The position numbers and the translations under genes are program-made. The notes below the pieces were generated by a model. The model worked only from the letters and a program-made list of their open reading frames with translations, made no database searches and was not told the origin of the DNA. A stretch of DNA of 33,505 bases from Mogibacterium sp. GTDB lineage: Bacteria > Bacillota > Clostridia > Peptostreptococcales > Anaerovoracaceae. The stretch covers positions 1 to 33,505 of the forward strand of contig JAFRJV010000069.1 in the NCBI GenBank assembly GCA_017432075.1, read 5' to 3'. This document shows, piece after piece, positions 7,279 to 33,222 of the stretch (the first letter of the stretch is position 1; the number at the start of each line of letters is the position of its first letter).

Positions 7279-7279
7279 A

Positions 7280-8515
7280 ATGGGGAAAAATGAAAAAACT
7301 CCAGCCATACGCTTCCAAGGATTCACTAATGCTTGGGAACAGCGTAAGTTATCCAGCATCGTTGATCGTGTCACCAGAAAGAACACTGGCTTGGAATCCA
7401 CATTGCCGCTGACAATCTCGGCACAGTATGGCCTTGTAGATCAGGTCACTTACTTCAACAATCGTGTTGCGAGCCAGAACATTAGTAATTACTACCTTGT
7501 GAAGAATGGTGAGTTTGCTTATAACAAAAGCTCTTCTGATGGTTATCCATTTGGTACCGTAAAACGCTTAGACCTTTATAAAATGGGCGCTTTATCGACA
7601 TTGTATATCGTATTTGCACTCAAAGATCTCAGTGTGGACAGCGATTTCCTGGCATGCTACTACGATACAGATAACTGGCATAAGCAGGTTTCTGAGCGAG
7701 CTGCAGAAGGCGCAAGGAACCATGGCCTGTTGAATATTTCAGCCGAAGATTTCTTGGATACAGACCTTATGATTCCGCAAGACATTCGAGAGCAAGTGCT
7801 TATCGGGGAATACTTGAAGAAACTAGACAACCTTATCACCCTTCATCAGCGTAAGTATGACAAGTTGATAAATGTGAAAAAGTCCATGCTGGAAAAACTG
7901 TTCCCTCGAGATGGAGCTGATGTTCCAGAAATTCGTTTTGCAGGTTTTACTGACCCTTGGGAACAGTGTAAGTGGTCAGATACAGTTGATATTTCAACAG
8001 ACATGGTTGATCCTAAAACTGGTCTTTATGATGAACTGCCTCATGTCGCACCGGGTAATATAGAGTCATTTACTGGTCGATTATATGATAACGTGAAGCT
8101 CGTTAAGGATGAAAACCTTATAAGCGGAAAGTTCAGATTCAGCGCTGGAGATATTATTTACGGGAAGATAAATCCACAGCTCGGCAAGTACGTATTTGCA
8201 ACTTTTTCAGGGCTCACGAGTGCAGACGCGTATGTATTAAATGCTAAAAACGGTGTAGATCAGAAATTCTTATACGCGGTTCTCCAAACGCAAGATTTCT
8301 TCAATTATTCAGTATCAGTATCAAAGCGATCTGGTATGCCGAAGATAAACCGTGACGAGCTAAACGCTTATTCGTTTACAGCTCCGTCAGCCGCAGAACA
8401 GGCTAAAATAGGAGCGTTCCTGCTTGACATTGACCACCTTATCACCCTTCATCAGCGTAAGCTGGAAAAACTTAAAAATATCAAGAAGTCTATGCTCGAG
8501 AAGATGTTTGTTTAA
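7280..8515 (+). CDS. hsdS: type I restriction specificity subunit, expressed copy
   Basis: It gives DNA sequence specificity to the methylase and restriction complexes. Two target-recognition domains (about residues 22-165 and 230-370) are separated and followed by helical conserved regions. Each recognition domain begins at WEQ(R/C)K and ends before (L/I)D(N/H)LITLHQRK and the coiled coil KSMLEKLF / KSMLEKMF. The start at 7280 has GGAGG at 7267-7271 with normal spacing and lies 1 nt after the hsdM stop; a TTG at 7265 overlapping hsdM is rejected. This copy is in the main operon and so is the one most likely expressed. It shares the DNA repeats that allow exchange with the downstream cassettes. 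Confidence 0.95.
   Translation: MGKNEKTPAIRFQGFTNAWEQRKLSSIVDRVTRKNTGLESTLPLTISAQYGLVDQVTYFNNRVASQNISNYYLVKNGEFAYNKSSSDGYPFGTVKRLDLYKMGALSTLYIVFALKDLSVDSDFLACYYDTDNWHKQVSERAAEGARNHGLLNISAEDFLDTDLMIPQDIREQVLIGEYLKKLDNLITLHQRKYDKLINVKKSMLEKLFPRDGADVPEIRFAGFTDPWEQCKWSDTVDISTDMVDPKTGLYDELPHVAPGNIESFTGRLYDNVKLVKDENLISGKFRFSAGDIIYGKINPQLGKYVFATFSGLTSADAYVLNAKNGVDQKFLYAVLQTQDFFNYSVSVSKRSGMPKINRDELNAYSFTAPSAAEQAKIGAFLLDIDHLITLHQRKLEKLKNIKKSMLEKMFV
7334..7348 (+). repeat. hsdS 5' repeat, copy 1 (forward)
   Basis: The 15-mer TGGGAACAGCGTAAG encodes the WEQRK boundary before a recognition domain. Exact copies are at 11769-11783 and 12324-12338, an inverted exact copy is at 14326-14340, and a one-mismatch copy is at 7958-7972. 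Confidence 0.9.
7826..7851 (+). repeat. hsdS 3' repeat, copy 1 (forward)
   Basis: A 26-bp repeat with core CTTATCACCCTTCATCAGCG, encoding DNLITLHQR after the first recognition domain. It is identical at 12807-12832 and inverted at 13826-13851. One-mismatch copies are at 8432-8457 and 12252-12277. Confidence 0.9.
7958..7972 (+). repeat. hsdS 5' repeat, copy 2 (variant, forward)
   Basis: It differs from the 15-mer by one base (CAGTG for CAGCG, giving WEQCK). It marks the second recognition domain of the first hsdS. Confidence 0.8.
8432..8457 (+). repeat. hsdS 3' repeat, copy 2 (forward, one mismatch)
   Basis: The same 26-bp unit with one base change, after the second recognition domain of the first hsdS. 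Confidence 0.85.
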
Positions 8516-8536
8516 GTGGGAAAGGACTTAGCAACT

Positions 8537-11500
8537 ATGGTATTTAACAAAGAAGCGGATTTTGAACAAGCTTTAATTGATTTGCTAAAGACAAAGGGCT
8601 GGGAAGATAAGGTTCTTAAGAACTATACCGAGACAGATTTGGTCCGTAATTGGGCAGATATTCTGTTTGAAAACAACCGTGACATAGATAGACTGAATGA
8701 CTATCCACTTACAGACGGTGAAATGCAGCAGATCATTGAGCAAATCGAAGTACTGAAGACGCCCCTCCGCCTTAATGGCTTTATCAATGGAGGCAGCGTT
8801 GCTATTACCCGCGATAACCCTGATGATATAGCGCATTTTGGGAAAGAAGTCTCTTTGAAGATCTATGAGCGCAGGGAGATAGCTGCTGGACAGAGCCGCT
8901 ATCAGATTGCACAACAACCTAAGTTCCCCACGAAATCCAAGATAATGAATGATCGTCGTGGGGATCTGATGCTTCTGATCAACGGCATGCCTGTCATTCA
9001 CATTGAGCTCAAGAAAAGCGGCGTTCCAGTCTCTCAAGCTACGAACCAGATAGAGAAATATGCTGGAGAAGGAATTTTTACTGGTTTATTTGCTTTGGTC
9101 CAGATTTTTGTTGCTATGAATCCAGACGAAACAAAGTATTTTGCGAATCCGGGTCCAGAAGGCAATTTCAACCCTGATTTTTATTTCCATTGGGCTGACT
9201 TCAACAATGAACCAATCAATGACTGGAAAAAGATTGGCTCAACACTTCTCTCAATTCCAATGGCACATCAGCTGATTGGATTCTATACAGTTGCCGATGA
9301 TTCCGACGGCATACTGAAGGTCATGCGCAGTTATCAGTATTATGCTGCTAATGCAATTTCGGATAAAGTTTCAAAGACAAAGTGGGAAGCTGGTAATCAG
9401 CTTGGTGGGTATATCTGGCACACAACCGGTTCTGGCAAAACCATGACCTCATTTAAGTCCGCGCAACTAATTGCAACATCAAAGGATGCAGACAAAGTTG
9501 TCTTCCTGATGGATAGAATTGAGCTGGGAACGCAGTCGCTCAAAGAATACAGGAACTTTGCGGGGGCAGGGCTCACGGAACAGCAGAAGGCAAACACGGT
9601 TCAAGAGACAGAGGATACTCATGTTCTGATTGGAAAACTCAAAAGTACCGACCCAGCAGACACATTGATTGTGACTTCTATCCAAAAGATGAGTAATATC
9701 AGCGAAGAAAACGAAGGTCTGAAGGCAGCTGATATAGAAATCATGAACTCAAAAAGGCTGGTTTTTATTGTTGATGAGGCGCATAGGTCGACTTTCGGAG
9801 AGATGCTTCTTACAATAAAACAGACCTTCCCAAAGGCGATTTTCTTTGGATTTACTGGTACTCCGATTCAAGAAGAGAATCAGAAAAAAATGAATACGAC
9901 TTCAACGGTATTTGGTAACGAGCTTCACAGATACAGTATTGCCGACGGTATCCGTGATAAGAATGTTCTCGGATTTGATCCGTATAAAGTCCTGACATAT
10001 AAAGATCAGGATGTAAGGCAGGTCGTTGCGCTTGAAAAAGCTAAAGCAGATACCGTGCAGGAAGCAATGAATGATCCTGCCAAAAAGAAAGTCTTCATGC
10101 AATACATGCAAAATGTTCCAATGGCCGGATACTATGAAGGCGATGGTTCGTATGTGAAAGGTATTGAGGACTATTTGCCACTCAGTCAATATCGTACTGA
10201 AGAGCACCAGTCAATGGTCGTAAAGGACATCGTGGATAACTGGATGATACTATCTCAAGGGAGCAAGTTCCATGCGATCTTTGCTACCAGCAGTATTCCG
10301 GAGGCGATTGAGTACTATCACCGTTTCAAAGAGGTAGCTCACGATTTAAAGGTAACTGCGCTCTTTGACCCTAGCATTGATAACAACGGTGGCGCGAAAG
10401 TCAAAGAGGATGGTCTATTAGAACTCATCGATGATTATAACCACAGATACGGCCAGGACTTTACTGCGGCTTCATTTGCCAAGATGAAAAAAGACATTGC
10501 TGCAAGACTCGCCCACAAGAAGCCATACGAACGAATTGACAAGACTCCGGAAAAAGAAATAGATCTCCTGATTGTTGTTGACCAGATGCTTACAGGATTT
10601 GATTCAAAATGGATCAATACGCTTTATCTGGATAAGATACTTCGCTATGAAAACATAATTCAGGCATTCTCTCGCACTAACAGATTGTTCGGACCGGATA
10701 AGCCTTTTGGAACGATCAAATATTACAGGAAGCCACATACAATGGAGAAGTATATAGAGGCTGCCGTAAAGCTCTATTCCGGAGACAGACCGTTTGGACT
10801 GTTTGCTCAGAGGCTTCATAAGAATCTTTCAAATATGAATTTCTTGTTTGAACAGATAAGAGATGTCTTTGAACAGGCGGGCGTTATTAACTTTGAGAAG
10901 ATTCCTTCGGAAACGGCTGAAAGAAAGAAGTTTGCTGATCTATTCCGACAGTTTAATGATTATTTGGAAGCTTCCAAGGTTCAGGGCTTCACATGGAAGA
11001 AGCTTGATTACTCTATTGTAGATGAGGAAACAGGCGAGGTTCATGACATTTCCATGGCACTTGATGAAACTACTTATCTTATTCTCGTCAAACGTTATAA
11101 GGAACTGTTTGGTGAAGGCTCTGGCCTGGGCGGCGATGATGTCCCTTATGATATTGACGGATATCTGACAACGATTGATACGGACAAGATAGACTCTGAT
11201 TATATGAATTCTCGATTCGATAAGTATCTAAAATTGCTTCATGCCAACGGAACTGGAGCTGAAGAACTGCAAAAGGCTGAGGACGAGCTGCATAAGACTT
11301 TTGCAACGCTTTCCCAAGAGGAACAAAAATATGCAAATATATTCCTACATGATATTCAGAGCGGTGATGTAATAGTAAACCCTGGAAAGACTTTTAAGGA
11401 GTATATTATTGAATACGTATCAAAGGCAAAAGATGATCAGATTCATCGACTTGCAGCATATGCACTTGGCTTAAATGAAATAATGCTTAGGAATCTAATG

Positions 11501-11704
11501 GCTCAGCATATTACGGAAGATAACATCAATGAGTTCGGGAGATTCGATGCATTGAAAGCTACAGTAGACAAAGCCAAGGCAAAAGCATACTTCGAAGCGG
11601 TAACGGGATTAAAACTACCTATCCCAAAAGTAAATATCAGGGTGGACAATCTGCTTCGTGATTTTATACTCAAGGGTGGATATGATATAAAAATGCCGGA
11701 ATGA
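8537..11704 (+). CDS. hsdR: type I restriction enzyme R subunit (nuclease and translocase)
   Basis: The motor and nuclease subunit: it pulls DNA using ATP and cuts foreign DNA far from the recognition site. Counting from the ATG at 8537, a PD-(D/E)xK nuclease domain has Asp ~143 (GDLMLLINGMP) and ELK ~157-159. The superfamily 2 helicase core has Walker A TTGSGKT (Lys ~301), DEAH ~413-416, FTGTP and the later RTNRLFG motif. The C-terminal ~300 residues are helical and would dock on HsdM/HsdS. The ATG at 8537 is preferred because GGAAAGGA (8519-8526) lies upstream; a GTG at 8516 directly after the hsdS stop is possible and adds seven residues. The length (about 1055) is normal. Confidence 0.95.
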   Translation: MVFNKEADFEQALIDLLKTKGWEDKVLKNYTETDLVRNWADILFENNRDIDRLNDYPLTDGEMQQIIEQIEVLKTPLRLNGFINGGSVAITRDNPDDIAHFGKEVSLKIYERREIAAGQSRYQIAQQPKFPTKSKIMNDRRGDLMLLINGMPVIHIELKKSGVPVSQATNQIEKYAGEGIFTGLFALVQIFVAMNPDETKYFANPGPEGNFNPDFYFHWADFNNEPINDWKKIGSTLLSIPMAHQLIGFYTVADDSDGILKVMRSYQYYAANAISDKVSKTKWEAGNQLGGYIWHTTGSGKTMTSFKSAQLIATSKDADKVVFLMDRIELGTQSLKEYRNFAGAGLTEQQKANTVQETEDTHVLIGKLKSTDPADTLIVTSIQKMSNISEENEGLKAADIEIMNSKRLVFIVDEAHRSTFGEMLLTIKQTFPKAIFFGFTGTPIQEENQKKMNTTSTVFGNELHRYSIADGIRDKNVLGFDPYKVLTYKDQDVRQVVALEKAKADTVQEAMNDPAKKKVFMQYMQNVPMAGYYEGDGSYVKGIEDYLPLSQYRTEEHQSMVVKDIVDNWMILSQGSKFHAIFATSSIPEAIEYYHRFKEVAHDLKVTALFDPSIDNNGGAKVKEDGLLELIDDYNHRYGQDFTAASFAKMKKDIAARLAHKKPYERIDKTPEKEIDLLIVVDQMLTGFDSKWINTLYLDKILRYENIIQAFSRTNRLFGPDKPFGTIKYYRKPHTMEKYIEAAVKLYSGDRPFGLFAQRLHKNLSNMNFLFEQIRDVFEQAGVINFEKIPSETAERKKFADLFRQFNDYLEASKVQGFTWKKLDYSIVDEETGEVHDISMALDETTYLILVKRYKELFGEGSGLGGDDVPYDIDGYLTTIDTDKIDSDYMNSRFDKYLKLLHANGTGAEELQKAEDELHKTFATLSQEEQKYANIFLHDIQSGDVIVNPGKTFKEYIIEYVSKAKDDQIHRLAAYALGLNEIMLRNLMAQHITEDNINEFGRFDALKATVDKAKAKAYFEAVTGLKLPIPKVNIRVDNLLRDFILKGGYDIKMPE

Positions 11705-11708
11705 TCGA

Positions 11709-12848
11709 TTGTTGACACAGCGTAAGTGTACCGAGGGCCAGGGGAAACCTTGGCTCTCTTGCTTTTCTTGGGAACAGCGTAAGTTGGGAGAACTGGTGCA
11801 ATTCTCGAAGGGAACCGGTTATTCCAAGGCTGATCTGAAGGAGTCCGGAACCCCTATCATCCTATACGGCAGGCTCTATACAAAATACGAGACTGTAATA
11901 GCGGATGTAGACACCTTCGCAGATGCAAAACCAGGCTCCGTTTATAGCCATGGCGGAGAGGTTATTGTACCTGCTTCAGGCGAGACTGCGGAGGACATTT
12001 CAATCGCATCAGTCGTTGAAAAATCAGGGGTTTTACTTGGTGGCGACCTTAATATCATCACACCTACGGGAGACTTGGATCCAGCGTTTTTAGCAATCAG
12101 TATTTCCAATGGAAAGCCGCATGATGATATGGCAAAAATGGCACAGGGAAAGTCGGTTGTCCATCTCCATAATACCGACTTAGAGAAGATAGATTTGGCC
12201 TTTCCGAGTCACGAAGAACAGCTGCAGATTAGCTCCTGCTTCAAACGCCTCGATAACCTTATCACCCTTCATCAGCGACAGATAAATCTTGTGCAAAGCA
12301 ATGGTGTGCAGAATACTCATTCTTGGGAACAGCGTAAGCTATCTGAAGTGGCTGATAAGGTGACCGAAAAGAACGTGAATTTGGCCGTTCATGAGACCTT
12401 TACGAACTCCGCAGAATACGGAGTGATTAGCCAGCGCGATTTCTTTGATCACGATATCTCTAATGCCGAGAATATTGGAGGCTATTACGTAGTCAGGAAT
12501 GAGGATTTTGTATATAATCCGCGTATCTCCGTGACTGCTCCGGTCGGCCCCGTAAATCGGAATAAATTAGGCAGAAATGGCGTAATGTCGCCACTTTACA
12601 CCGTATTCAGAGCACATGATATTGATACCACTTATCTTGAATGGTTTTTTAAGAGCAGTTATTGGCATCCGTTCATGTTTTTCAACGGAGACTCTGGCGC
12701 AAGATCAGATCGGTTTTCTATCAAAGATGCGGTCTTTTTCGAGATGCCGATACCGACTCCGAGCCTTGCAGAACAAAGGCGGATTGGTGCCTACATAGAT
12801 AAGCTCGACAACCTTATCACCCTTCATCAGCGTGAGCATACTGTTTAA
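11709..12848 (+). CDS. hsdS: second two-domain HsdS, probably a poorly expressed donor cassette
   Basis: A specificity-subunit frame with two complete recognition domains, SWEQRKLGELVQFS... (after 11769) and SWEQRKLSEVADKV... (after 12324). Each ends in LDNLITLHQR. Only a TTG at 11709 opens the frame and no Shine-Dalgarno sequence is visible before it, while the opening codons repeat the CAGCGTAAG half of the 15-mer. It therefore looks like sequence moved by recombination, with no proper start of its own. It may be translated weakly by coupling to hsdR, whose stop is 4 nt before. The second recognition domain resembles the first domain of the expressed hsdS (both start with an xVT(R/E)KN block and contain a YGL/YGV element). 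The tail lacks the KSMLEKMF coiled coil, so the protein is C-terminally shortened. Confidence 0.8.
   Translation: MLTQRKCTEGQGKPWLSCFSWEQRKLGELVQFSKGTGYSKADLKESGTPIILYGRLYTKYETVIADVDTFADAKPGSVYSHGGEVIVPASGETAEDISIASVVEKSGVLLGGDLNIITPTGDLDPAFLAISISNGKPHDDMAKMAQGKSVVHLHNTDLEKIDLAFPSHEEQLQISSCFKRLDNLITLHQRQINLVQSNGVQNTHSWEQRKLSEVADKVTEKNVNLAVHETFTNSAEYGVISQRDFFDHDISNAENIGGYYVVRNEDFVYNPRISVTAPVGPVNRNKLGRNGVMSPLYTVFRAHDIDTTYLEWFFKSSYWHPFMFFNGDSGARSDRFSIKDAVFFEMPIPTPSLAEQRRIGAYIDKLDNLITLHQREHTV
11769..11783 (+). repeat. hsdS 5' repeat, copy 3 (forward)
   Basis: An exact copy of the 15-mer, at the start of the first recognition domain of the second hsdS. Confidence 0.9.
12252..12277 (+). repeat. 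hsdS 3' repeat, copy 3 (forward, one mismatch)
   Basis: A 25 of 26 match, after the first recognition domain of the second hsdS. Confidence 0.85.
12324..12338 (+). repeat. hsdS 5' repeat, copy 4 (forward)
   Basis: An exact copy that, with the inverted copy at 14326-14340, forms the outer pair of an invertible segment spanning the recombinase gene. Confidence 0.9.
12807..12832 (+). repeat. hsdS 3' repeat, copy 4 (forward)
   Basis: An exact 26-bp copy that pairs with the inverted 13826-13851 copy, immediately flanking the recombinase gene. Confidence 0.9.
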
Positions 12849-12863
12849 GTGATAAAGATCGTC

Positions 12864-13793
12864 TTAGCTGAGACTAGATAATGATCTCATTACCAAATCC
12901 ACATCCTGATTCTCTAATTCATGTATGATGTGAAGATAAGTTTTCTGTGTTGTGGTCATGCTTGCGTGACCCAGTCTTCTTGCAACACTTCCAATAGATA
13001 CACCTGCAAAAAGAAGCAGCGAAGCATGAGTGTGACGAAGACCATGTACAGAGATAACCGGGATTTTTGCCTTTGTACAATGCCTTTCTAAAATATCGTT
13101 CACCGTTGAATTGTAAACCTTATCTTTTGTAACAAATATCGGTTTATCTTCTGGCAACCCTTTGAGCAATTCCGAGAATTGAATAACCGTCTGCCAATCA
13201 ATCTGGATTTTCCTAACAGAAGATTTGTTCTTTGTTGGAAGAAATCCCCCTTCGCCCTTATAATCCCAAGTCTTGCTGATTGAGAGAGTCTGATGAGCGA
13301 AGTCGAAGTCTTTAGGAGTCAATGCCAATGCTTCAGAAAATCTCATACCCGTTTTTGCTATTAACAGAATGAACCAATCCCAATTTACATCCTTCCCGAG
13401 ATTCAATCCTATCAACAATGTATGCAGTTCAAACTGGTTTAGGTACTTAATCTTTTTCTCTGCTGGCGGTTTTCCTTTTATAATCACTTTTCTTGTCGGA
13501 TCTCTATCTATCAAACCTTCATCAACTGCATCTAGGATTGCCCCTTTCAATTGATGATGAAAATCCATCGTAGTTTGCCGCTCGTGGTTTTTAGCATAAT
13601 CATTCAGTAGCTTTTGGTATGTAATTCTTGTCATTTCACACATCCTTATATCAGGTATGAGTTTCATAAGCCACGATTGTGTCATCAAATACTTGCCCAA
13701 TGTCACTTCTCGTATAGCACCCTCTTTGTAGACGTGAACCCATTGAGCGTAATAGTCGCAGAACAAGTCTGTATTCCTTGCATTTTCTAACAT
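12864..13793 (-). CDS. tyrosine recombinase of the hsdS shuffling locus
   Basis: A site-specific recombinase of the phage-integrase family, lying between inverted hsdS repeats and opposite in direction to hsdMSR. It very probably catalyses exchange of HsdS recognition domains, as in known PsrA/CreX-type loci of Firmicutes. An N-terminal SAM-like core-binding domain (about 10-95) precedes the catalytic domain, which has GMRFSEAL (first Arg), HGLRHTHASLL (His-x-x-Arg), LGHASMTTTQKTYLH (His and the nucleophilic Tyr). The length of ~309 residues is usual for this type. GGAGG on the minus strand lies 6 nt before the ATG at 13793; the ATG at 13796 is too close. It could alternatively be an integrase of a mobile element, but its position inside the repeats argues for shuffling. 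Confidence 0.92.
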   Translation of the reverse strand: MLENARNTDLFCDYYAQWVHVYKEGAIREVTLGKYLMTQSWLMKLIPDIRMCEMTRITYQKLLNDYAKNHERQTTMDFHHQLKGAILDAVDEGLIDRDPTRKVIIKGKPPAEKKIKYLNQFELHTLLIGLNLGKDVNWDWFILLIAKTGMRFSEALALTPKDFDFAHQTLSISKTWDYKGEGGFLPTKNKSSVRKIQIDWQTVIQFSELLKGLPEDKPIFVTKDKVYNSTVNDILERHCTKAKIPVISVHGLRHTHASLLLFAGVSIGSVARRLGHASMTTTQKTYLHIIHELENQDVDLVMRSLSSLS

Positions 13794-13825
13794 CATTCAC
13801 CTCCGAATATATGTAAGCTCACTCA

Positions 13826-13851
13826 CGCTGATGAAGGGTGATAAGGTTGTC
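13826..13851 (-). repeat. hsdS 3' repeat, inverted copy
   Basis: The reverse complement of the exact 26-bp unit. It is the inner inversion site facing 12807-12832. Confidence 0.92.
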
Positions 13852-14325
13852 TATCTGACGTAAGAAGCCTCCAATTTTCTTTTGCTCCGCATATTCTGGC
13901 ACTAAAAAAGTATATTCGCCATACTCCTGAGCATTAACTCCCGGCTGGCCGGATCTCTGCGAAGTGATCTGAATATACTTCTCATAGGGAACACCGAGGG
14001 TATTCTGAAAAACAAATTCAGGATCATATTCAGGTTTGATTTTAGCTCGAATAAGGAAGCCTGCGAAATAGACAAGGCCGTCAGATTCCCTGTAAATAAA
14101 GGATTTTCCCACACTCGCACCTGTTCTGGCAAACAAAATTTCTCCATCATGAAGTAAATAGTTGCTGGCTACTGAAAGATCCGTATCAGGGGAGGTTAAG
14201 TCATCGTCTTTGAAAACACGGGACGAATCATCGATGTCTGTAATACGAAGATACTTATTCACTCCATCAAACTCTTTGGCCGCAGCGTTCAGTCCGTATT
14301 CAAAAGATGAAGCTACTTCTCCCAA

Positions 14326-14340
14326 CTTACGCTGTTCCCA
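14326..14340 (-). repeat. hsdS 5' repeat, inverted copy
   Basis: The reverse complement of the exact 15-mer. It is the outer inversion site facing 12324-12338. Confidence 0.92.
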
Positions 14341-14443
14341 AGAATGAGTAGAGGGATGATGTGCGCGGCAAAGGAAACAAATGGAAGTAATCAAACCCAT
14401 AGGCTATAATAAAAACATAGTTGGTACATAGAAATAAAGGCGC

Positions 14444-27111: not shown

Positions 27112-27146
27112 GGACGCCCCGAACACTGAAAGAAAGGATGAACATT

Positions 27147-28190
27147 ATGAGAAAATTGGCAAGCATACAAAGGATATGGAAGATAGAGCCGATCGAAGGG
27201 GCTGACAGGATAGAACTTGCGCATGTGCTGGGTTGGCAATGCGTTGTGAACAAAGGTCAGTTCAAGGAGCAGGACCTTGCTGTATATTTCGAAGTAGACA
27301 GCTTCCTGCCGATCCGCCCTGAGTTCGAATTCATGAGGGCGTCAAGCTACAAGAATACCAATATAATGGGAGAAGGATTCAGGCTCAGAACGATGAAGTT
27401 CAGAGGGCAGATCTCGCAGGGACTGCTCCTGCCTGTATCGGAGTTCCCGGAGATCCCGGCAGAGGCGGAACTTGGCACAGATGTATCCGAGGTCCTCGGT
27501 GTGAGAAAGTGGGAGATCGAAGAGAAAATCACTACAGGGGGAACAGTTATAGGAACTCTTCCGTATGACATCCCTCACACTGATGAGACGAGGGTACAGA
27601 CAGAACCTGGTCTTATACAGGCGTTTGCAGGACTTGAGTACTACATCTCAACAAAGATGGATGGATCTTCGCATTCGATAGGTCTCGATGAAGACGGATT
27701 CCATGTGACCGGCCATAACTATGAATACAAAGACGATGGGACTAGTGCATTCTATGAACTCATCAATAAGCGCGGTATCGAGGAAAAGATCAAAGCATTC
27801 GCTGAAGAAAACGGGCTCAGGACCATCACGCTTCAAGGCGAGCTTTGTGCGCCAGGCATCCAGAAGAACCCGCTGAAGCTGACCGCGCCAGAGTGGTATG
27901 TATTCACGGTCAGGGAAGACGGCAAAAGAGTTGGCCTTGAAAGGATGCTCAAAGTATGCGAAGCTCTTCAGATAGAGCATGTTCCGATCGAAGAGACAGG
28001 TTTCGACCTCCCGTCGAAGTACCCTACAGTGGATGCGCTCCTTGAGCGTGCTGACGGAGAATATCCGAAGGGCGGTAAAAAGGAAGGCATCGTTATCAGA
28101 CCGACAGAACCTGTATACTGTGAACTGATCAGCGCATCTCTGTCTATGAAGGTGGTCAGCAACAAATACCTGCTGAAGAAGGAAAAGTAA
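27147..28190 (+). CDS. RNA ligase, DRB0094/Rnl5-like with N-terminal OB domain
   Basis: An ATP-dependent ligase that seals RNA 3'-OH/5'-phosphate ends. Residues ~1-150 form an OB-like domain (KLASIQRIWKIEPIEGADRIELAHVLGWQCVV, KFRGQISQGLLLPV), as in Deinococcus DRB0094. The nucleotidyltransferase domain has motif I STKMDGSS (Lys ~170, which takes AMP), motif III TLQGELCAPG, motif IV KKEGIVIRP (Lys ~312) and motif V MKVVSNKYLL (Lys ~335). AAAGGA precedes the ATG at 27147; the ATG at 27138 overlaps that site and is rejected. The phosphoesterase follows 15 nt later and rtcB after it, forming an RNA-repair group. Confidence 0.93.
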   Translation: MRKLASIQRIWKIEPIEGADRIELAHVLGWQCVVNKGQFKEQDLAVYFEVDSFLPIRPEFEFMRASSYKNTNIMGEGFRLRTMKFRGQISQGLLLPVSEFPEIPAEAELGTDVSEVLGVRKWEIEEKITTGGTVIGTLPYDIPHTDETRVQTEPGLIQAFAGLEYYISTKMDGSSHSIGLDEDGFHVTGHNYEYKDDGTSAFYELINKRGIEEKIKAFAEENGLRTITLQGELCAPGIQKNPLKLTAPEWYVFTVREDGKRVGLERMLKVCEALQIEHVPIEETGFDLPSKYPTVDALLERADGEYPKGGKKEGIVIRPTEPVYCELISASLSMKVVSNKYLLKKEK

Positions 28191-28205: not shown

Positions 28206-28742
28206 ATGAATGAACCTATGATCTTTATAACTGCGGATCTGCATCTCGGGCATGCGAATATCATCAGATATTGCGGCAGGCCATATCGGGATTTCAATGA
28301 AATGAACGAAGATCTGATCCGCAGATGGAACAGTGTCGTGTCAGATAATGACAGAGTTTTCTTCCTCGGTGATTTTGCTCTTGGCGATACGGAAAAGACG
28401 ATTCGTTGGGGACAAAGGCTCAATGGACGAAAGGTCATGATATATGGCAATCATGATCATCATAAGCCAAAGGTATACTATGAGGCCGGTTTTGAGCACG
28501 TATCAAAGTGGCCGATCGTTATCCAGAACCGATTCCTGCTGTCGCACGCCCCGATGTTCGCAGGATCTGACAGCGGAGTGAATCCCGGTGAACTTATCAA
28601 CATCCACGGCCACATCCATGATAAGATCGACCAGGGACCTACTGTCAGTGCAAAGTCTGCATGCGTCTGTGTCGAGAGATGGGACTATACGCCTGTAGAA
28701 CTTAGGATCCTGGAGCAGGAGATCCGGAAAGCCTCGAAATAA
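28206..28742 (+). CDS. calcineurin-like metallophosphoesterase, probable RNA end-healing role
   Basis: 178 residues with all metal-binding blocks: TADLHLGH (Asp 11, His 13), FFLGDFALGD, YGNHDHH, LSHAP and HGHIHD. Such small phosphoesterases hydrolyse phosphomono- or diesters. Between two RNA ligases, the likely task is opening 2',3'-cyclic phosphates or removing end phosphates, by inference from neighbours only. AAAGGA is 13 nt before the ATG, a little far; the ATG at 28218 is less likely. Confidence 0.88.
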   Translation: MNEPMIFITADLHLGHANIIRYCGRPYRDFNEMNEDLIRRWNSVVSDNDRVFFLGDFALGDTEKTIRWGQRLNGRKVMIYGNHDHHKPKVYYEAGFEHVSKWPIVIQNRFLLSHAPMFAGSDSGVNPGELINIHGHIHDKIDQGPTVSAKSACVCVERWDYTPVELRILEQEIRKASK

Positions 28743-28744
28743 TA

Positions 28745-29052
28745 GGATTAAACCACAAGGTTAATATACAGAGCTTGACACATATGGTATATTGATTGCG
28801 GAAAAAGAGTCGCTTAGGCGGCGAATGACTATAAAAAAAGAGGAACAAAAAACAAATGTTATATCTACACTTTGCATCATGGAGCATAAATACAGAATCG
28901 AAACCGCAGGGTATTGACCTGATGGGACGCTGCTTTGTGTGCAAAAATGAGACAAGTATCAGGAGTGTGCGGCATGTGAGTTAGGTGCCGGGCATATTGG
29001 ATAGAGTGATAACATCCGCTTGTCTCAAATAAGAGATGAGCGGATTTTTTTT
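28745..29052 (+). promoter_or_regulatory. rtcB leader: promoter module plus transcription attenuator
   Basis: The gene-free stretch before rtcB. Near the start lie ATTAAACCAC and TATACA (28765-28770), then 17 nt, then TATATT (28788-28793), all shared with the second XRE leader. Near its end, ATCCGCTTGTCTC (29014-29026) and GAGATGAGCGGAT (29033-29045) form a 13-bp terminator stem followed by eight T (29045-29052), directly against the GGAGG at 29054. TGAGACAAG (28948-28956) can instead pair CTTGTCTCA (29019-29027) and break the terminator. The inducing signal is unknown; there is no T-box motif. A small hairpin CGGCA/TGCCG and TTTGTGTGCAAA lie between and before. Confidence 0.82.
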
Positions 29053-29064
29053 CGGAGGAAAGAA

Positions 29065-30264
29065 ATGTTAGAGATCAAGGGCAAAGTGAATACAGCTGTC
29101 TGCTTTGCCAGAGTAATTGAAGATGAGGCGATCGAGCAGATCCGTCGTATGTGCGATACCGAGATGACTCGCGGCAGCCGGATCAGGATCATGCCTGACG
29201 TGCATGCCGGAAAGGGCTGCACTATCGGTACGACCATGACGATAACAGATAAGGCAGTGCCAAATGTCGTAGGCGTGGATATCGGATGCGGCATGTACAC
29301 GGTCAAGCTCGGCAAAGTGGACATCGACTTCGAAAAGGTCGATGAGGCATGCCATATCATCCCATCGGGTTTCGACACCTGGGAAGGAGTAAAGTGGCCT
29401 TTCGACCTGACAGAGCTCAGATGCTACAGAGAGCTAAGAGATGCCAAGAGGCTGAACAGATCTCTCGGAACACTCGGCGGAGGAAACCACTTCATCGAGA
29501 TCGATGAGGCCGCAGATGGCACAAAGTATCTCGTCATCCATTCAGGCTCGAGAAATCTTGGCAAGCAAGTAGCGGAATACTACCAGCAGCTTGCCATCGA
29601 TCTGAATCAAGGCAAGGATGAATACCTGACTAAACGTGATCAGATCATCGAGGAGTATAAGGCTGCAGGCAGAAAGAGCGAGATCCAGACTGCATTGAAG
29701 GCTATCACGTGGGAGAAGAAGGACACAACAGTACCGGATGACCTTTGTTACCTGTACGGCAGCTATCTGGATGACTATCTGCATGACGTAGAGATCTGCC
29801 AGGCTTTTGCAAGACTGAGCAGAGAGAAGATGGCGGAAGTCATCCTCGAGCACACAGGACTCGAGGCGATCGAAGCCTTCCACACCATCCATAACTATAT
29901 CGACATAGACGAGATGATACTGCGTAAGGGAGCTATCGCGGCCCACGAAGGCGAACTCGTGCTGATCCCTATCAACATGAGAGACGGATCAGTCCTGGCA
30001 TACGGCAAGGGCAACCCTGACTGGAACTATTCGGCACCGCATGGTGCAGGTCGTATCATGTCAAGAACGAAGGCTAAGGATGTCATCGAGATGGAAGACT
30101 ACAGAAAGGCGATGGAGGGCATCTACACCACATCTGTAAGCACAGCTACTCTGGATGAAGCTCCGATGGCATACAAGTCACTCGAGGATATCATCGATGT
30201 CATCGAGGAATCAGTAGACGTTATAGAAGTATTAAAACCAGTTTTCAACTATAAGGCAGGCTAG
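29065..30264 (+). CDS. rtcB: RtcB RNA ligase
   Basis: A GTP- and manganese-dependent ligase that joins RNA 3'-phosphate (or 2',3'-cyclic phosphate) to 5'-OH ends, the products left by tRNA- and mRNA-cleaving toxins. Seen here: PDVHAGKGCTIG, VVGVDIGCGM (metal Cys 75), LGTLGGGNHF (His 142), IHSGSRNLG (His 159), and APHGAGR with the guanylated His 326. At 399 residues it is of the shorter bacterial type. The start at 29065 follows GGAGG (29054-29058); an upstream in-frame TTG lies inside the terminator stem and is rejected. No Archease gene is seen nearby. Expression is probably conditional through the attenuator. Confidence 0.95.
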   Translation: MLEIKGKVNTAVCFARVIEDEAIEQIRRMCDTEMTRGSRIRIMPDVHAGKGCTIGTTMTITDKAVPNVVGVDIGCGMYTVKLGKVDIDFEKVDEACHIIPSGFDTWEGVKWPFDLTELRCYRELRDAKRLNRSLGTLGGGNHFIEIDEAADGTKYLVIHSGSRNLGKQVAEYYQQLAIDLNQGKDEYLTKRDQIIEEYKAAGRKSEIQTALKAITWEKKDTTVPDDLCYLYGSYLDDYLHDVEICQAFARLSREKMAEVILEHTGLEAIEAFHTIHNYIDIDEMILRKGAIAAHEGELVLIPINMRDGSVLAYGKGNPDWNYSAPHGAGRIMSRTKAKDVIEMEDYRKAMEGIYTTSVSTATLDEAPMAYKSLEDIIDVIEESVDVIEVLKPVFNYKAG

Positions 30265-30315: not shown

Positions 30316-30630
30316 ATGAACGTGAGAGCGGTCGGTGTAACAAGAGTGCCCGTCATCGACCTCAGAGCAACAGGGCAGAACATCAAGAACCTCAGGACAG
30401 CTGCAGGTGTTTCTGTAAGAGACCTCCAGATGATCCTTGGTTTCACTAACCCGCAGGCTATCTACAAGTGGCAGAACGGTGACTGCATGCCAACGATCGA
30501 CAACCTCGTGATCCTTGCAGCGGTACTCGGTGTCACAGTAGACGAGATCCTTGTCACAGACGAGGATCCCGCCGACGGAGAGGTGATTATCAAAGGTTCA
30601 GTAATAACAGGCATAAGTGTGCAGTGGTGA
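30316..30630 (+). CDS. XRE-family regulator, paralogue 1
   Basis: 104 residues with one Cro/C1-type helix-turn-helix at about 20-75: GQNIKNLRTAAGVSVRDLQMILGFTNPQAIYKWQNGDCMPTIDNLVILAAVLGVTVDEIL. It is closely related to the second XRE protein at 32911, especially in the recognition region (GFTNPQAIY.WQ.G). It follows rtcB by 51 nt and precedes the tRNA array, so it may regulate rtcB or the tRNA transcript. Confidence 0.9.
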   Translation: MNVRAVGVTRVPVIDLRATGQNIKNLRTAAGVSVRDLQMILGFTNPQAIYKWQNGDCMPTIDNLVILAAVLGVTVDEILVTDEDPADGEVIIKGSVITGISVQW

Positions 30631-30645
30631 CGACTGCTGCACACG

Positions 30646-30676
30646 GGCTCCGGCTTCTTGTCCGAAGCGGAGAAAA
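30646..30676 (+). terminator. hairpin after XRE paralogue 1
   Basis: CTCCGGCTTC pairs GAAGCGGAG with one bulged G across a 6-nt loop. It is followed by AAAAC rather than T, so it is a hairpin or processing site more than a classic terminator. Confidence 0.4.
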
Positions 30677-30677
30677 C

Positions 30678-30746
30678 AGCTGCATCGAGAAAGGTACTCA
30701 TTTTGTCTGTAAAACGAAACTTGCCGGTTCGAGTCCGGCGAAGCAT
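30678..30746 (+). other. degenerate tRNA-like element, Tyr (GTA) anticodon
   Basis: A D-arm-like GAG/CTC (30687-30689/30697-30699) holds GG in its loop. The anticodon stem TTTGT/ACGAA encloses CTGTAAA, giving anticodon GTA (30709-30711). The T arm GCCGG-TTCGAGT-CCGGC is perfect (30723-30739). However, the flanks do not form a 7-bp acceptor stem, no CCA follows and the variable arm is short. It is either a decayed tRNA gene or a tRNA mimic. Confidence 0.5.
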
Positions 30747-30803
30747 GCTTGCATGTTTCACTGCTGTTTCTATATTCTCGGACATTATTAAAAGCCGGAA
30801 TGA

Positions 30804-30878
30804 GTGGCATTAGTGTAATGGCCAGCATATCAGTCTTCCAAACTGATGGTATGGGTTCAAGTCCCATATGCCGCTCCA
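30804..30878 (+). tRNA. tRNA-Gly (TCC)
   Basis: Acceptor GTGGCAT pairs ATGCCGC with U73 and encoded CCA. Anticodon stem TCAGT/ACTGA with loop CTTCCAA. T arm ATGGG/CCCAT. It is the first clear gene of the array. Confidence 0.95.
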
Positions 30879-30881
30879 TAA

Positions 30882-30958
30882 GCTCCAGTATCCCAAACGG
30901 TAGAGGAGATGGACTGAGAGTCCATACGGTACAGGTTCGAATCCTGTGTGGAGCACCA
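30882..30958 (+). tRNA. tRNA-Leu (GAG) with short variable loop
   Basis: Acceptor GCTCCAG faces GTGGAGC (one mismatch at 7-66), A73 and CCA. Anticodon stem ATGGA/TCCAT with loop CTGAGAG. The variable loop is only ACGGT, where bacterial Leu tRNAs normally carry a long arm. Confidence 0.88.
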
Positions 30959-30962
30959 ATTT

Positions 30963-31038
30963 GTGACAGTAGTTCAGTCGGCAGAATATCGGCTTGCCAA
31001 GTCGAAGGTCACGGGTTCAAGCCCCGTCTGTCACTCCA
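30963..31038 (+). tRNA. tRNA-Gly (GCC)
   Basis: Acceptor GTGACAG/CTGTCAC, U73, CCA. Anticodon loop TTGCCAA on TCGGC/GTCGA. T arm ACGGG/CCCGT. Confidence 0.95.
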
Positions 31039-31042
31039 ACAT

Positions 31043-31120
31043 CGGAGCGTAGCTCAGTTTGGCTAGAGCGTCCGGCCTGGGACCGGAAAGTCGGGAGTTC
31101 GAGTCTCTCCACTCCGACCA
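31043..31120 (+). tRNA. tRNA-Pro (TGG) with C33
   Basis: Acceptor CGGAGCG/CACTCCG (one mismatch) with the C1-G72 pair of Pro tRNAs, A73, CCA. Anticodon stem TCCGG/CCGGA encloses CCTGGGA, so base 33 is C rather than the near-universal U. Confidence 0.9.
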
Positions 31121-31127
31121 ATAATAT

Positions 31128-31211
31128 CGGCAGGTGGCACAGCGGCGACTGCAGGCGGCTGTAACCCGCTTACACGGAAACGCGTAGGTTCGAGTCCTAC
31201 CCTGCCGACCA
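31128..31211 (+). tRNA. tRNA-Tyr (GTA), class II, with C1-G72
   Basis: Acceptor CGGCAGG/CCTGCCG, A73, CCA. Anticodon loop CTGTAAC on GGCGG/CCGCT. Long variable region of about 13 nt. T arm GTAGG/CCTAC. Bacterial Tyr tRNAs usually start G1-C72. Confidence 0.9.
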
Positions 31212-31215
31212 ATAT

Positions 31216-31291
31216 GTGCCATTAACTCAATTGGGAGAGTGTCTGCCTTGCACGCAGGAAGCTGCGGGTTCAAGTCCCGCATGGTACACCA
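31216..31291 (+). tRNA. tRNA-Ala (TGC)
   Basis: Acceptor GTGCCAT/ATGGTAC carries the G3-U70 alanine identity pair, A73, CCA. Anticodon loop CTTGCAC. T arm TGCGG/CCCGC region with TTCAAGT loop. Confidence 0.95.
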
Positions 31292-31296
31292 AAAAT

Positions 31297-31385
31297 GGAG
31301 AGATAACCCTAATGGTAAGGGAACGGTTTGCTAAACCGCGAGTAGCCCTTAAGGCGTGGAGGTTCAAGTCCTCTTCTCTCCGCCA
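31297..31385 (+). tRNA. tRNA-Ser (GCT)
   Basis: Acceptor GGAGAGA/TCTCTCC, G73, CCA. Anticodon loop TTGCTAA. Long variable arm (AGCCC/GGC type) as expected for Ser. Confidence 0.94.
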
Positions 31386-31389
31386 ATGC

Positions 31390-31477
31390 GGATGGTTACC
31401 GAAATGGTTATAACGGCGCGGTCCTGAAAACCGATGTGGCGAAAGCCCTGTGGGTTCGAATCCTACACCATCCGCCA
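31390..31477 (+). tRNA. tRNA-Ser (TGA) with C33
   Basis: Acceptor GGATGGT/ACCATCC, G73, CCA. Long variable arm. Anticodon stem CGGT/ACCG encloses CCTGAAA, placing C at position 33. Confidence 0.9.
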
Positions 31478-31481
31478 ACAT

Positions 31482-31560
31482 GCTCCAGTATCCCAATCCT
31501 GGTAGAGGAAATGGCCTCAGACACCATCAAGTACAGGTTCGAGTCCTGTCTGGAGCACCA
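31482..31560 (+). tRNA. tRNA-Leu (CAG) with short variable loop
   Basis: Acceptor GCTCCAG/CTGGAGC perfect, A73, CCA. Anticodon loop CTCAGAC, with one C-A mismatch in the stem. The variable loop is only CAAGT. Close in sequence to the two other Leu genes of the array. Confidence 0.88.
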
Positions 31561-31564
31561 TTAT

Positions 31565-31639
31565 ATCTCGTTCGTCTAAAGCAAAGGACGCGGAGCTACG
31601 GACTCCGTAATGCAGGTTGGAATCCTGCACGGGATACCA
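31565..31639 (+). tRNA. tRNA-Arg (ACG), T loop altered
   Basis: Acceptor ATCTCGT/ACGGGAT with G-T pairs, A73, CCA. Anticodon loop CTACGGA on CGGAG/CTCCG. The T loop reads TTGGAAT where TTCGAAT is usual (G56 for C56), which would alter the D-loop contact. Confidence 0.88.
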
Positions 31640-31643
31640 ATAT

Positions 31644-31719
31644 GATTCTCTCGTCCAACTGGTAGGACACCGGCCTCTTAATCCGGGAGATGTGAGTTCG
31701 AATCTCACGGGGATCACCA
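31644..31719 (+). tRNA. tRNA-Lys (CTT)
   Basis: Acceptor GATTCTC/GGGGATC, A73, CCA. Anticodon loop CTCTTAA with a C-T mismatch closing the stem. T arm GTGAG/CTCAC. Near-duplicate of the Lys (TTT) gene. Confidence 0.93.
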
Positions 31720-31723
31720 ATAT

Positions 31724-31798
31724 GCTCCTGTGGCGCAATGGTAACGCGGCTGCCTTGTAAGCAGCGGACTGTCGGTTCGAATCCGACTGGGAGCTCCA
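31724..31798 (+). tRNA. tRNA-Thr (TGT)
   Basis: Acceptor GCTCCTG/TGGGAGC, U73, CCA. Anticodon loop CTTGTAA on a CTGC/GCAG stem. T arm GTCGG/CCGAC. Confidence 0.95.
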
Positions 31799-31801
31799 TA
31801 T

Positions 31802-31876
31802 GATTCTCTCGTCTAATGGAAGGATACCGGACTTTTAATCCGGGAGATGTGGGTTCGAATCCCACGGGGATCACCA
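31802..31876 (+). tRNA. tRNA-Lys (TTT)
   Basis: Acceptor GATTCTC/GGGGATC, A73, CCA. Anticodon stem CCGGA/TCCGG with loop CTTTTAA. T arm GTGGG/CCCAC. The large structured RNA starts 6 nt downstream. Confidence 0.95.
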
Positions 31877-31881
31877 TTATA

Positions 31882-32454
31882 ATCGAATATCTTCTTATGC
31901 TTTTGATCCAACTCGGTGCAGAAGGCTTTACAACCTGCCGAGGCGCGATGGAATTCTTAGTGAGCATCCCGAGGGATACCTTGGGAGAGGAGCTGTTGTA
32001 TATCAGCGATGGTATACAGGGAGGCGGAAACCGCCAACAGAAAAGTCGCGGCACCGTGTGATAGCGAGATAAAAGTTACTGGACTCGCGGGGCGGGCAAT
32101 AGACGCTCCAGTGGAGAATAATCCTGTATGCCTTGTCCGTGGCTGGATGATGACACAGCAGGAAAGCCACTAACCGCCTGAGAGTTGATGCCCGGAAACG
32201 GGATATAACGCGAGAAACAGGTGCGAGTAGCCAAAGCTCTCGGTGAAGAACCGGTCTGTATCAACCGCTAGATACTCAAGCTGAAGTTTGGTGAAAGTTA
32301 TGGGTATCAATCCCATGTGGTCACGGCGAAAGCGGTGTGAAAATGTTAGGGGTCGCTCCCCGAAGCACAGCGTCACATCACCACTGAACGAACATTATCG
32401 ATGATCATGCGGCATCCCGAAGGGGAGGATGAAAGGCATAAGCGGGTATTCGAT
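31882..32454 (+). ncRNA. ~573-nt ornate structured RNA, ROOL/GOLLD-like
   Basis: The ends close on each other: ATCGAATA (31882-31889) pairs TATTCGAT (32447-32454) and CTTATGC (31894-31900) pairs GCATAAG (32436-32442), with a 4x4 internal loop. Inside are many hairpins: CTCGG/CCGAG (about 31912-31943), CTGTTG/CAACAG (31992-31997/32035-32040), ACTGGA/TCCAGT (32078-32083/32107-32112), GTGGCT/AGCCAC (32139-32144/32165-32170), CCCG-GAAA-CGGG (32191-32202), ATGGG/CCCAT (32300-32316) and a GAAA-capped TCAC/GTGA (32321-32340). No open frame fits. ROOL RNAs are about this long and are known beside tRNAs in Firmicutes phages and mobile elements; GOLLD is longer. The family is inferred from size, form and setting, not from a sequence match. 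Confidence 0.8.
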
Positions 32455-32460
32455 CAAGAT

Positions 32461-32536
32461 GCTCCTGTATCCCAACGGTAGAGGAAGCGGTCTTAAAAAC
32501 CGCACAGTGCAGGTTCGAATCCAGCCAGGAGCACCA
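32461..32536 (+). tRNA. tRNA-Leu (TAA) with short variable loop
   Basis: Acceptor GCTCCTG/CAGGAGC perfect, A73, CCA. Anticodon stem GCGGT/ACCGC with loop CTTAAAA. Variable loop ACAGT only. One A-A mismatch in the T stem. It starts 6 nt after the large RNA. Confidence 0.9.
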
Positions 32537-32547
32537 GAAAACAATGA

Positions 32548-32624
32548 TGCGGAGTGGTAGCAGTGGTTAGCTCGTTTGGCTCATACCCAAAAGGTCGTCG
32601 GTTCAAATCCGACCTCCGCAACCA
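32548..32624 (+). tRNA. tRNA-Met (CAT), initiator-like
   Basis: Acceptor TGCGGAG/CTCCGCA, A73, CCA. Anticodon loop CTCATAC. The D-arm end GCTCG, the AAGGTCG variable part and the TTCAAAT T loop resemble bacterial initiator tRNA. The anticodon stem TTTGG/CCAAA lacks the three G-C pairs of initiators and the first pair is T1-A72. Confidence 0.9.
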
Positions 32625-32628
32625 ATTA

Positions 32629-32896
32629 TTAAACTACGACCTTACTATACAGAGACATATTCCGGTGATATATTGATGCCGGATAAGGAAAGGAATCAAA
32701 GTAATGGCTTACAGACTCGTATTTGTACAGAACATCATATGCGAACAAGACTTCCATGTCATCGATTGGGAGAATGATTTTGTGTGCAAATATGAGATGA
32801 GAGGGAAAGCCGTGGGGCAGCCTAGCTGACAGCCTTGCAGAAACAGATGACGATTTCATATCCGCTTGTCTCATATATGGGATAAGCGGTTTTTTT
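32629..32896 (+). promoter_or_regulatory. second copy of the attenuator leader, before XRE paralogue 2
   Basis: It aligns with the rtcB leader. ATTAAACTAC and TATACA (32646-32651), then 17 nt, then TATATT (32669-32674) open it, and TTTTGTGTGCAAA recurs before the switch. CCGCTTGTCTC (32862-32872) and GGGATAAGCGG (32879-32889) form an 11-bp terminator followed by seven T. TATGAGATGAG (32791-32801) can pair CTTGTCTCATA (32865-32875) through 11 bp with two G-U pairs. Bases differ from the rtcB copy at several paired sites, yet both alternative stems are kept. GGGAGG of the XRE gene follows the T run. The 280-nt stretch has no gene. Confidence 0.82.
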
Positions 32897-32910: not shown

Positions 32911-33222
32911 ATGCGTACCGGAGCAGCTGGCGGAAGAGCGCCGGCAATCAATCTTAAAAAAACAGGCGAGAATATCACGAGGATGAGGAAGGAAGCAGGG
33001 ATCTCTGTCAGAGAGCTGCAGATCATGTTCGGATTCACAAATCCGCAGGCGATCTATAGCTGGCAGAGCGGAAAGAGTCTTCCGGCCGTGGATAACCTTA
33101 TCATCCTGGCTGCGATCCTTGGGACGACCATCGATGAGATCATTTCCACGGAGGAAGATGATCATGAAGATATCGGTGATGTCGAAGAAGGAATAGTGAT
33201 CTTCACGCAAACAATTTCATAA
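32911..33222 (+). CDS. XRE-family regulator, paralogue 2
   Basis: 103 residues with a single Cro/C1 helix-turn-helix: GENITRMRKEAGISVRELQIMFGFTNPQAIYSWQSGKSLPAVDNLIILAAILGTTIDEI, then an acidic tail. It shares most recognition-helix residues with paralogue 1. The start at 32911 follows GGGAGG (32899-32904); upstream in-frame codons lie in the terminator and are rejected. It sits between two blocks of tRNA genes and behind its own attenuator. Confidence 0.9.
   Translation: MRTGAAGGRAPAINLKKTGENITRMRKEAGISVRELQIMFGFTNPQAIYSWQSGKSLPAVDNLIILAAILGTTIDEIISTEEDDHEDIGDVEEGIVIFTQTIS

Follow-up and report, generated by a model that had tools for sequence, protein, structure and literature searches.

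What is the large noncoding RNA that lies between tRNA genes of Mogibacterium sp., and does its position behind rtcB and an RNA ligase gene tie it to RNA repair? We analyzed one stretch of 33,505 nucleotides (contig JAFRJV010000069.1; hereafter, the window), for which an earlier note had proposed that the RNA is ROOL. A cmscan search of Rfam matched ROOL (RF03087) at window positions 31888-32445 of the plus strand, with 304.3 bits and an E value of 2.7e-69 over the whole model (1-574 of 574). The score is about three times the curated gathering cut-off of 99.1 bits, and neither GOLLD nor OLE was listed in the window at the gathering threshold. Judged by its sequence, the RNA is real and is ROOL, a member of a known family. 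One ROOL is present in G000 (2.75 Mb, 83% complete), the assembly from which the window comes. The positions of the features discussed below are collected in the table.

Table. Features of the window, in order of position.
Feature	Positions	Strand	Basis
RNA ligase; its closest relative of solved structure is that of Naegleria gruberi	27138..28190	+	PF21189, PF09414; 5cot, E 2e-50
Metallophosphoesterase, between RNA ligase and rtcB	28206..28742	+	PF00149
Promoter-like site before rtcB leader, TATACA-17-TATATT, TG before second hexamer	28765..28793	+	Promoter scan; similar sites before relatives' rtcB by eye
Leader ORF 1, 42 codons, all 20 amino acids in first 30 codons	28856..28984	+	
Putative antiterminator arm inside leader ORF 1, complementary to terminator 5' arm	28947..28956	+	
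Hairpin around leader 1 stop codon	28965..28995	+	26 leaders: both-sided changes at 5 of 10 pairs, pairing in 77.9% of cells
Predicted terminator of attenuator 1, just 5' of rtcB	29014..29053	+	
rtcB RNA ligase	29065..30264	+	PF01139; start set by alignment with relatives
HTH_3 regulator gene HTH1	30316..30630	+	PF01381
tRNA array part 1, 13 tRNA genes	30804..31876	+	ARAGORN
ROOL cassette including outer closing helix	31882..32454	+	RF03087 (model covers 31888-32445), outer arms located, missing from like array G086
tRNA-Leu(taa), tRNA-Met(cat) directly 3' of ROOL	32461..32624	+	ARAGORN
Second promoter-like site, TATACA-17-TATATT	32646..32674	+	
Leader ORF 2, 41 codons, 19 of 20 amino acids	32704..32829	+	
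Predicted terminator of attenuator 2	32862..32896	+	
Second HTH_3 gene HTH2	32911..33222	+	PF01381; ATG 3' of terminator; listed ORF begins TTG 32866
tRNA array part 2: Asn, Glu, Arg, one tRNA cut by contig end	33227..33505	+	ARAGORN and Rfam scan

The closing helix of the window ROOL reaches beyond the ends of the Rfam model. Its outer arms are ATCGAATATC, which begins at 31882, and GGTATTCGAT, which ends at 32454; they pair with each other across a span of 573 nt, exactly the one that had been claimed. The closing stem had been put at 8 + 7 bp, and the minimum free energy (MFE) fold gives more, with opening helices of 11 + 11 bp. The same fold contains 17 hairpins where at least eight had been predicted, but only 3 of them carry GNRA loops, so that this part of the earlier description did not hold. 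Single-strand folding of the span gave -215.8 kcal/mol, compared with -180 +/- 7.2 kcal/mol for shuffled sequences (z -4.97; 0 of 100 shuffles). Both flanking tRNA genes are on the strand of ROOL, and because tRNA-Lys(ttt) ends at 31876 and tRNA-Leu(taa) begins at 32461 in the ARAGORN prediction, the gaps are 5 nt and 6 nt, in agreement with the 6 nt first counted on both sides.

The earlier note had also made the case depend on relatives keeping the closing stem, and they do. In a comparison of 40 ROOL copies, several of them near-identical and those of viruses with ends extrapolated from profile hits, the two ends of one copy paired at a mean of -34.2 kcal/mol, whereas ends taken from different copies paired at -14.9 kcal/mol (sd 6.3). 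The best-scoring partner was the copy's own end in 32 of the 40; in the exceptions, the own end ranked second (L001, L040, L055 and L071), fourth (L018), 16th (L057), 35th (L050) or 40th (L049). In the copy of G080 (L017:9771-10420), a tRNA-Leu fragment is fused to ROOL and replaces the outer 5' arm. According to the available text of PMC12286853, ROOL is often found near tRNA islands of phages and prophages, and another ROOL forms a nanocage; by analogy, the window copy may assemble in the same way.

We then consider the setting of the array. The window has genes for a VirB4/TraG-type ATPase and a CHAP protein, a type I restriction locus with extra specificity genes and an integrase, and Mrr, and then holds the RNA ligase, metallophosphoesterase, RtcB, HTH, tRNAs, ROOL, tRNAs, the second HTH and tRNAs to the contig end. 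In G056, the left part of the counterpart runs on as far as a PrgI gene, and the right part reaches an integrase of phage type. The presence of the VirB4/TraG-type ATPase, CHAP, PrgI and phage-type integrase genes suggests an integrated conjugative element, or a remnant of one, as the setting of the locus. No relaxase was found among the ORFs scanned, no rtcR-like gene among 30 window ORFs, and no Y RNA family in the window at the Rfam gathering threshold, and PADLOC assigned no defence family to RtcB, the RNA ligase, the phosphoesterase, the DUF2828 protein or the TROVE-like protein. G056, whose array has 28 tRNA genes, is of the same genus as the window, as are G052, G080 and G082. Several other features were seen in this region. 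The type I restriction locus (window 4723-14400) has three hsdS-like genes with the integrase between two of them and is probably a phase-variable specificity switch. A group II intron end lies at window 60-136, beside the conjugation ATPase gene, and in G056 an intron maturase is encoded on the same contig (L080:566-2512). The noncoding segment 3' of HTH1 (window 30640-30800) contains a T-arm-like piece, possibly of a decayed tRNA, and a similar segment, CCGAAGCGGAGAAAACAG, stands 3' of the leader in L188.

ROOL is an optional, removable insert in the tRNA array of this gut bacterium. A ROOL match at E <= 0.001 was found in 13 of 349 genomes of the family, 11 of them above the cut-off. Five copies lie within tRNA arrays: the window copy and those of L017 (G080), L018 (G060), L019 (G056) and L020 (G082). 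Among the remaining family loci that were fetched, tRNAs are absent from the stretches of L015 (a tandem pair), L016, L021, L022 and L023, and L024, L025 and L026 have one each. In the array of G086 (L213), which lacks ROOL, 5 nt separate tRNA-Lys(ttt) from tRNA-Leu(taa) at the site that ROOL occupies in the window. G056 and G086 are 99.3% identical over 1164 nt 5' of the site and 97.9% over 2436 nt 3' of it, and they differ by a clean indel of about 580 nt; G086 still has rtcB, the RNA ligase and the phosphoesterase. Arrays without ROOL, with short spacers at the Lys and Leu(taa) junction, were also found in G076, G083 and in the genome of the window itself (contig C43 of G000). Two array sites receive ROOL, namely the one before Leu(taa) in the window, G056 and G082, and the one between Gly(gcc) and Leu(gag) in G060, of which the G080 site is a rearranged version. 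Tandem ROOL pairs occur in two genomes (L015:9840-11060 and L074:1695-2840), each with an ORF 3' of the pair that looks zinc-ribbon-like by eye. The copy at L022:9759-10309 has no tRNA within 20 kb and is near GAPDH, SecA and Cna_B genes; none of the 10 ORFs scanned there had a named phage function.

Does rtcB then accompany ROOL or the array? Fifteen fetched arrays had at least four tRNAs, 5 with ROOL and 10 without, the latter found via the leader pattern described below and several of them stopping at contig ends. Within the stretches fetched, rtcB was present in 4 of the 5 arrays with ROOL and in 4 of the 10 without; occurring in both kinds, it goes, in this genus, with the array and not with ROOL. 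In the 13 ROOL genomes, RtcB was encoded less than 2 kb from ROOL in 4 and anywhere in 7, and the RNA ligase was present in 2. The rtcB-HTH block of the window is 81-94% identical in nucleotides, and RtcB 89-96% in residues, to those of the other three rtcB-ROOL loci. Since the blocks are so alike, the four loci probably have one origin, not four.

Virus records took the question outside the family. Searches with two ROOL patterns returned 41 virus loci, and ROOL is present in 38 of them, as shown with Infernal for 24 of 26 and with a nucleotide profile for 14 of 15 (one of these 14 was confirmed by Rfam, and the records may be fragments). rtcB was found in 1 of the 38, that is, in 0 of the 24 of the Infernal set and 1 of the 14 of the profile set. 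In the reverse direction, the fetched stretches of 80 virus rtcB loci (80 kept of 151 found) contained no clear ROOL; in L137, a weak profile match of 26.8 bits was not listed by the Rfam scan. An RNA ligase above cut-off was encoded in 3 of the 24 Infernal records, at a distance of 14-42 kb from ROOL, which argues against a close link between the two in these records. Of 7 further ROOL genomes (7 of 14 loci scanned, DNA pattern), 3 have rtcB, to judge from contig sizes none of them on the ROOL contig, although two of those ROOL contigs are so short (4 and 12 kb) that rtcB may still lie nearby. The single positive virus contig, L224 (G385:C1:6001-26000), has DUF2828, 9 tRNAs, a ROOL of 305.8 bits and RtcB on one strand within 16 kb; the RtcB of this unrelated contig is 51% identical to that of the window. 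One of its 9 tRNAs was called tRNA-SeC. Given 1 in 38 virus records and a G086 array that keeps the repair genes without ROOL, we rejected a class-wide link of ROOL with RtcB. The suggestion that the copy beside rtcB ties the whole class to RNA repair thus survives only in a narrower form: the present lineage and a single unrelated virus contig have ROOL inside a tRNA/rtcB locus.

By raw count, the DUF2828 gene was above cut-off in 6 of the 38 ROOL virus records, about 5 to 36 kb from ROOL; tRNAs were present in the ROOL locus, as fetched, of each of the six, two of which (G349 and G358) look like copies of one virus. None of 5 virus DUF2828 loci had ROOL in the fetched stretch. The idea that DUF2828 is a Ro60-like protein was dropped, as profile searches gave nothing firm. 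3' of the tRNA array of G060 (L018:11513-17698) are genes for a DUF2828/DUF7788 protein, a TROVE-like protein and a TIR-TPR protein, and G080 also holds DUF2828, TROVE-like and TIR-TPR genes. The TROVE-like gene, with a match below the curated cut-off, was found in G060 and G080 only; of the rtcB and Rsr (TROVE) genes that stand together in a repair operon of the Salmonella type, the window has rtcB (PF01139). Among the virus contigs, L137, which also encodes RtcB, has a partial OLE RNA match (L137:3941-4090; 91.2 bits, model 438-593) among 14 tRNAs. tRNAs with a CTA anticodon, called Pyl, occur in the virus arrays L032, L041, L167 and L169, and L032 and L041 have ROOL and a tmRNA as well.

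How would ROOL be expressed? We found no terminator-like site on the plus strand between 30760 and 32861, and the one plus-strand promoter-like site between HTH1 and ROOL (31617-31646) is weak (9/12) and inside tRNA genes. Of 42 ROOL loci, 19 have tRNAs within 3 kb, and all 186 of these tRNAs share the strand of ROOL; some of the loci are copies of one virus. The same strand, the short gaps and the lack of a terminator between them make the array ROOL look like one more unit of the tRNA precursor, so the claim of a common precursor is borne out as far as position goes. The standalone copies of L016 and L021 have a promoter-like site just 5' of ROOL, with an HTH-like ORF ending 15 or 71 nt upstream, which argues that ROOL elsewhere needs no tRNA operon.

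A common layout precedes both rtcB and HTH2 with the second array half: a promoter-like site, a short ORF and a strong hairpin with a T run. At both window copies, the terminator 5' arm can pair with the end of the leader ORF. Window-wide scans gave 7 promoter-like sites vs 5.3 in shuffles and 5 terminator-like sites vs 3.9; because the scans as a whole were not above shuffles, the case for an attenuator rests on conservation. A search of 345 family genomes found the leader pattern in 15 of them, at 26 places in all; the reversed pattern gave no match. The leader stands before rtcB in L017-L019 and in the tRNA-less rtcB loci L027-L030. In G052 (L031), neither rtcB copy is directly preceded by it, and one leader precedes an HTH gene. 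None was seen by eye before the HTH of the standalone loci L016 and L021. A match without ATG (L204) was dropped; from its position at the locus edge, it is the L191 leader cut off. Nearly all of the 24 distinct open leaders have, by eye, a purine-rich stretch before the ATG.

In the alignment of 26 sequences, the antiterminator (ORF end and terminator 5' arm, the arm being fixed by the search pattern) can pair in 91.5% of cells, and 2 of its 11 pairs have changes on both sides; the terminator can pair in 98.5% of cells and has such changes in 2 of 13 pairs. Both pairings were far above slid controls. The two outermost pairs of the antiterminator helix fail in 8 and 11 of 25 sequences. Whole-structure covariation scores were 0.215 and 0.265, compared with 0.022-0.084 when slid and with shuffled means of 0.145 and 0.185 (0 of 500 shuffles). 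The counts of pairs changed on both sides were reached by 28 and 19 of 500 shuffles, and the antiterminator structure beat two of the five shuffle measures no more than moderately (28/500 and 47/500). A search for the leader among known RNA families gave a best E of 4.8. It has the features of an attenuator, namely a leader ORF with a ribosome-binding site, a terminator with a U-tract and an alternative antiterminator. We infer that it is an attenuator relieved by shortage of any tRNA, which would place ROOL in a tRNA-damage-inducible operon.

Up to and including the conserved Cys-Lys codons (28-33 residues), the leaders use 13-20 different amino acids, and 18 of the 24 distinct leaders use at least 17; because the leaders are related, these counts are not independent. 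For comparison, we used 110 long ORFs of at least 250 codons, taken from six frames of 12 loci with their gene status unchecked, in which windows of 29 and 30 residues have means of 14.1 and 14.3 amino acids (sd 1.6) and reach at least 17 in 5.6% and 7.4%. All 20 amino acids within 30 codons were found in 2 of the 24 leaders, the rtcB leader of the window and L196, whose first halves differ, and in 0 of 42,466 host 30-residue windows. L187 and L199 have 14 and 13 amino acids in that leader part. Over the whole length, leaders before rtcB, before HTH2 and in the diverged L196 and L200 have 17-20, with the exception of L199 (15). When whole leaders were shuffled by nucleotide, P was below 0.05 in only 3 of 24. 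Leader differences favour the third codon position weakly (167/175/192 and 129/179/217), which would fit selection for variety without fixed identity and, equally, a lack of constraint on the peptide.

From the observed identity, boundaries and presence or absence of ROOL, together with the gene order and the conserved leader and terminator architecture, our preferred reading, to which we give about even odds, is that ROOL is an accessory product of an inducible tRNA repair-and-replacement operon that lies in a mobile-type array under leader attenuation. In such an operon, one precursor starting from the promoter before rtcB would carry rtcB, HTH1, tRNAs and ROOL. Attenuation would keep the operon off, as a ribosome finishing the leader would cover the antiterminator arm and let the terminator form. 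A ribosome stalled earlier, at any codon whose tRNA is cleaved or depleted, would leave the arm free to capture the terminator, and RtcB, replacement tRNAs and ROOL would be made. ROOL could be freed when tRNA-processing enzymes trim the flanking tRNAs. In the most speculative step, ROOL cages might hold or shelter RNAs (tRNAs, fragments, ribosomal particles) during repair. ROOL would be an aid, not an essential part, because close relatives lack it. A fuller version, which we put forward tentatively, is that the near-all-20 leader is a universal tRNA-shortage detector of a mobile tRNA-repair-and-replacement operon and that the induced ROOL nanocages shelter RNAs during tRNA attack.

ROOL might instead be a selfish or neutral passenger of tRNA islands, spread by recombination between tRNA spacers and with no role in RNA repair. 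The presence or absence of ROOL in otherwise like arrays and its two or more insertion sites agree with a passenger, as do the rarity of rtcB in ROOL virus records (1/38) and the rtcB counts in arrays with and without ROOL (4/5 and 4/10). Yet diverged copies keep the structure and the closing stem, the unrelated contig L224 repeats the combination of ROOL, tRNAs, rtcB and DUF2828, and the L. salivarius RNA, a ROOL according to the available text of PMC12286853, is made at a very high level, as the available part of PMC5643018 reports. We find a mere passenger somewhat doubtful. At the other extreme, ROOL would be part of a repair machine, e.g. a scaffold for RtcB and the DUF2828/TROVE-like proteins, like the Salmonella Y RNA beside rsr and rtcB. 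In G060 and G080, ROOL does lie between rtcB-HTH and the DUF2828 and TROVE-like genes, and DUF2828 recurs in 6 of 38 ROOL virus records, but like operons exist without ROOL, DUF2828 has no firm sequence link to solved proteins and the TROVE match is below the curated cut-off, so that we consider such a machine very improbable.

The leader, too, allows another reading, in which it senses slowed translation in general, as caused for example by antibiotics, and does not detect single tRNAs, the variety of amino acids being incidental. This would explain why most single leaders do not stand out under nucleotide shuffles and why the third-position excess is weak. It fits less well with the 17-20 amino acids found across the full leaders of rtcB, HTH2, L196 and L200 (L199, with 15, excepted), or with downstream genes that are an RNA ligase gene, HTH genes and tRNAs, and we think it rather unlikely. 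If the fuller version above, with its universal detector and induced nanocages, is true, ROOL would gain its first physiological trigger. Near-identical arrays with and without ROOL, together with the predicted trigger (loss of any tRNA), are a basis for a direct experiment. Set before an RNA ligase gene and a tRNA set, a leader that samples almost every amino acid would let a cell or mobile element sense tRNA-cleaving defences and toxins by simple means.

How does this locus compare with known systems? The window RNA resembles other members of RF03087 in its full-length model match, size, closing stem and tRNA-island setting; it differs in being an optional cassette in the tRNA array of a bacterial contig, behind rtcB and a putative leader attenuator and with no promoter-like site directly 5'. 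GOLLD has reportedly been found in Mycobacterium tRNA arrays, to go by the title of a cited paper. It is likewise a large ornate RNA near phage and prophage tRNA islands, but it is distinct from ROOL in sequence and structure in the available text of PMC12286853 and gave no match in the window. In L. salivarius, an HTH gene is downstream of ROOL (PMC5643018, available part). The Salmonella rsr-yrlBA-rtcBA operon also combines rtcB with a noncoding RNA and a Ro-type gene and is induced by tRNA damage, as the available text of PMC7790460 describes. There, however, sensing falls to RtcR, which binds tRNA fragments through its CARF domain (PMC7790460, same text), whereas the window has a leader ORF with a terminator and antiterminator, so that leader-based sensing, if true, would differ from that of the CARF-based RtcR.

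With the trp and his attenuators, the locus shares a leader ORF and mutually exclusive antiterminator and terminator. The trp and his leader peptides repeat one codon; window-type leaders, in contrast, contain almost all amino acids, and the genes behind them are rtcB, HTH or tRNA genes. tRNA sets on mobile DNA, such as the mycobacterial tRNA array units and phage sets, have been proposed to counter tRNA-cleaving defences (available parts of PMC12803027 and PMC10264068), and the proposal for phage tRNAs, as far as PMC10264068 is available, fits the large tRNA set on mobile-type DNA seen here (28 genes in G056). RtcB has no occurrence in PMC12803027 or in the plasmid paper PMC10832533, and the available part of PMC12803027 describes no attenuator in those arrays. 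Among open-licence full texts, we found no report of an all-amino-acid leader of this kind, which does not mean that none is published. Taken together, the leader, the optional ROOL and the rest of the operon combine known kinds: attenuators, RNA repair operons and tRNA arrays.
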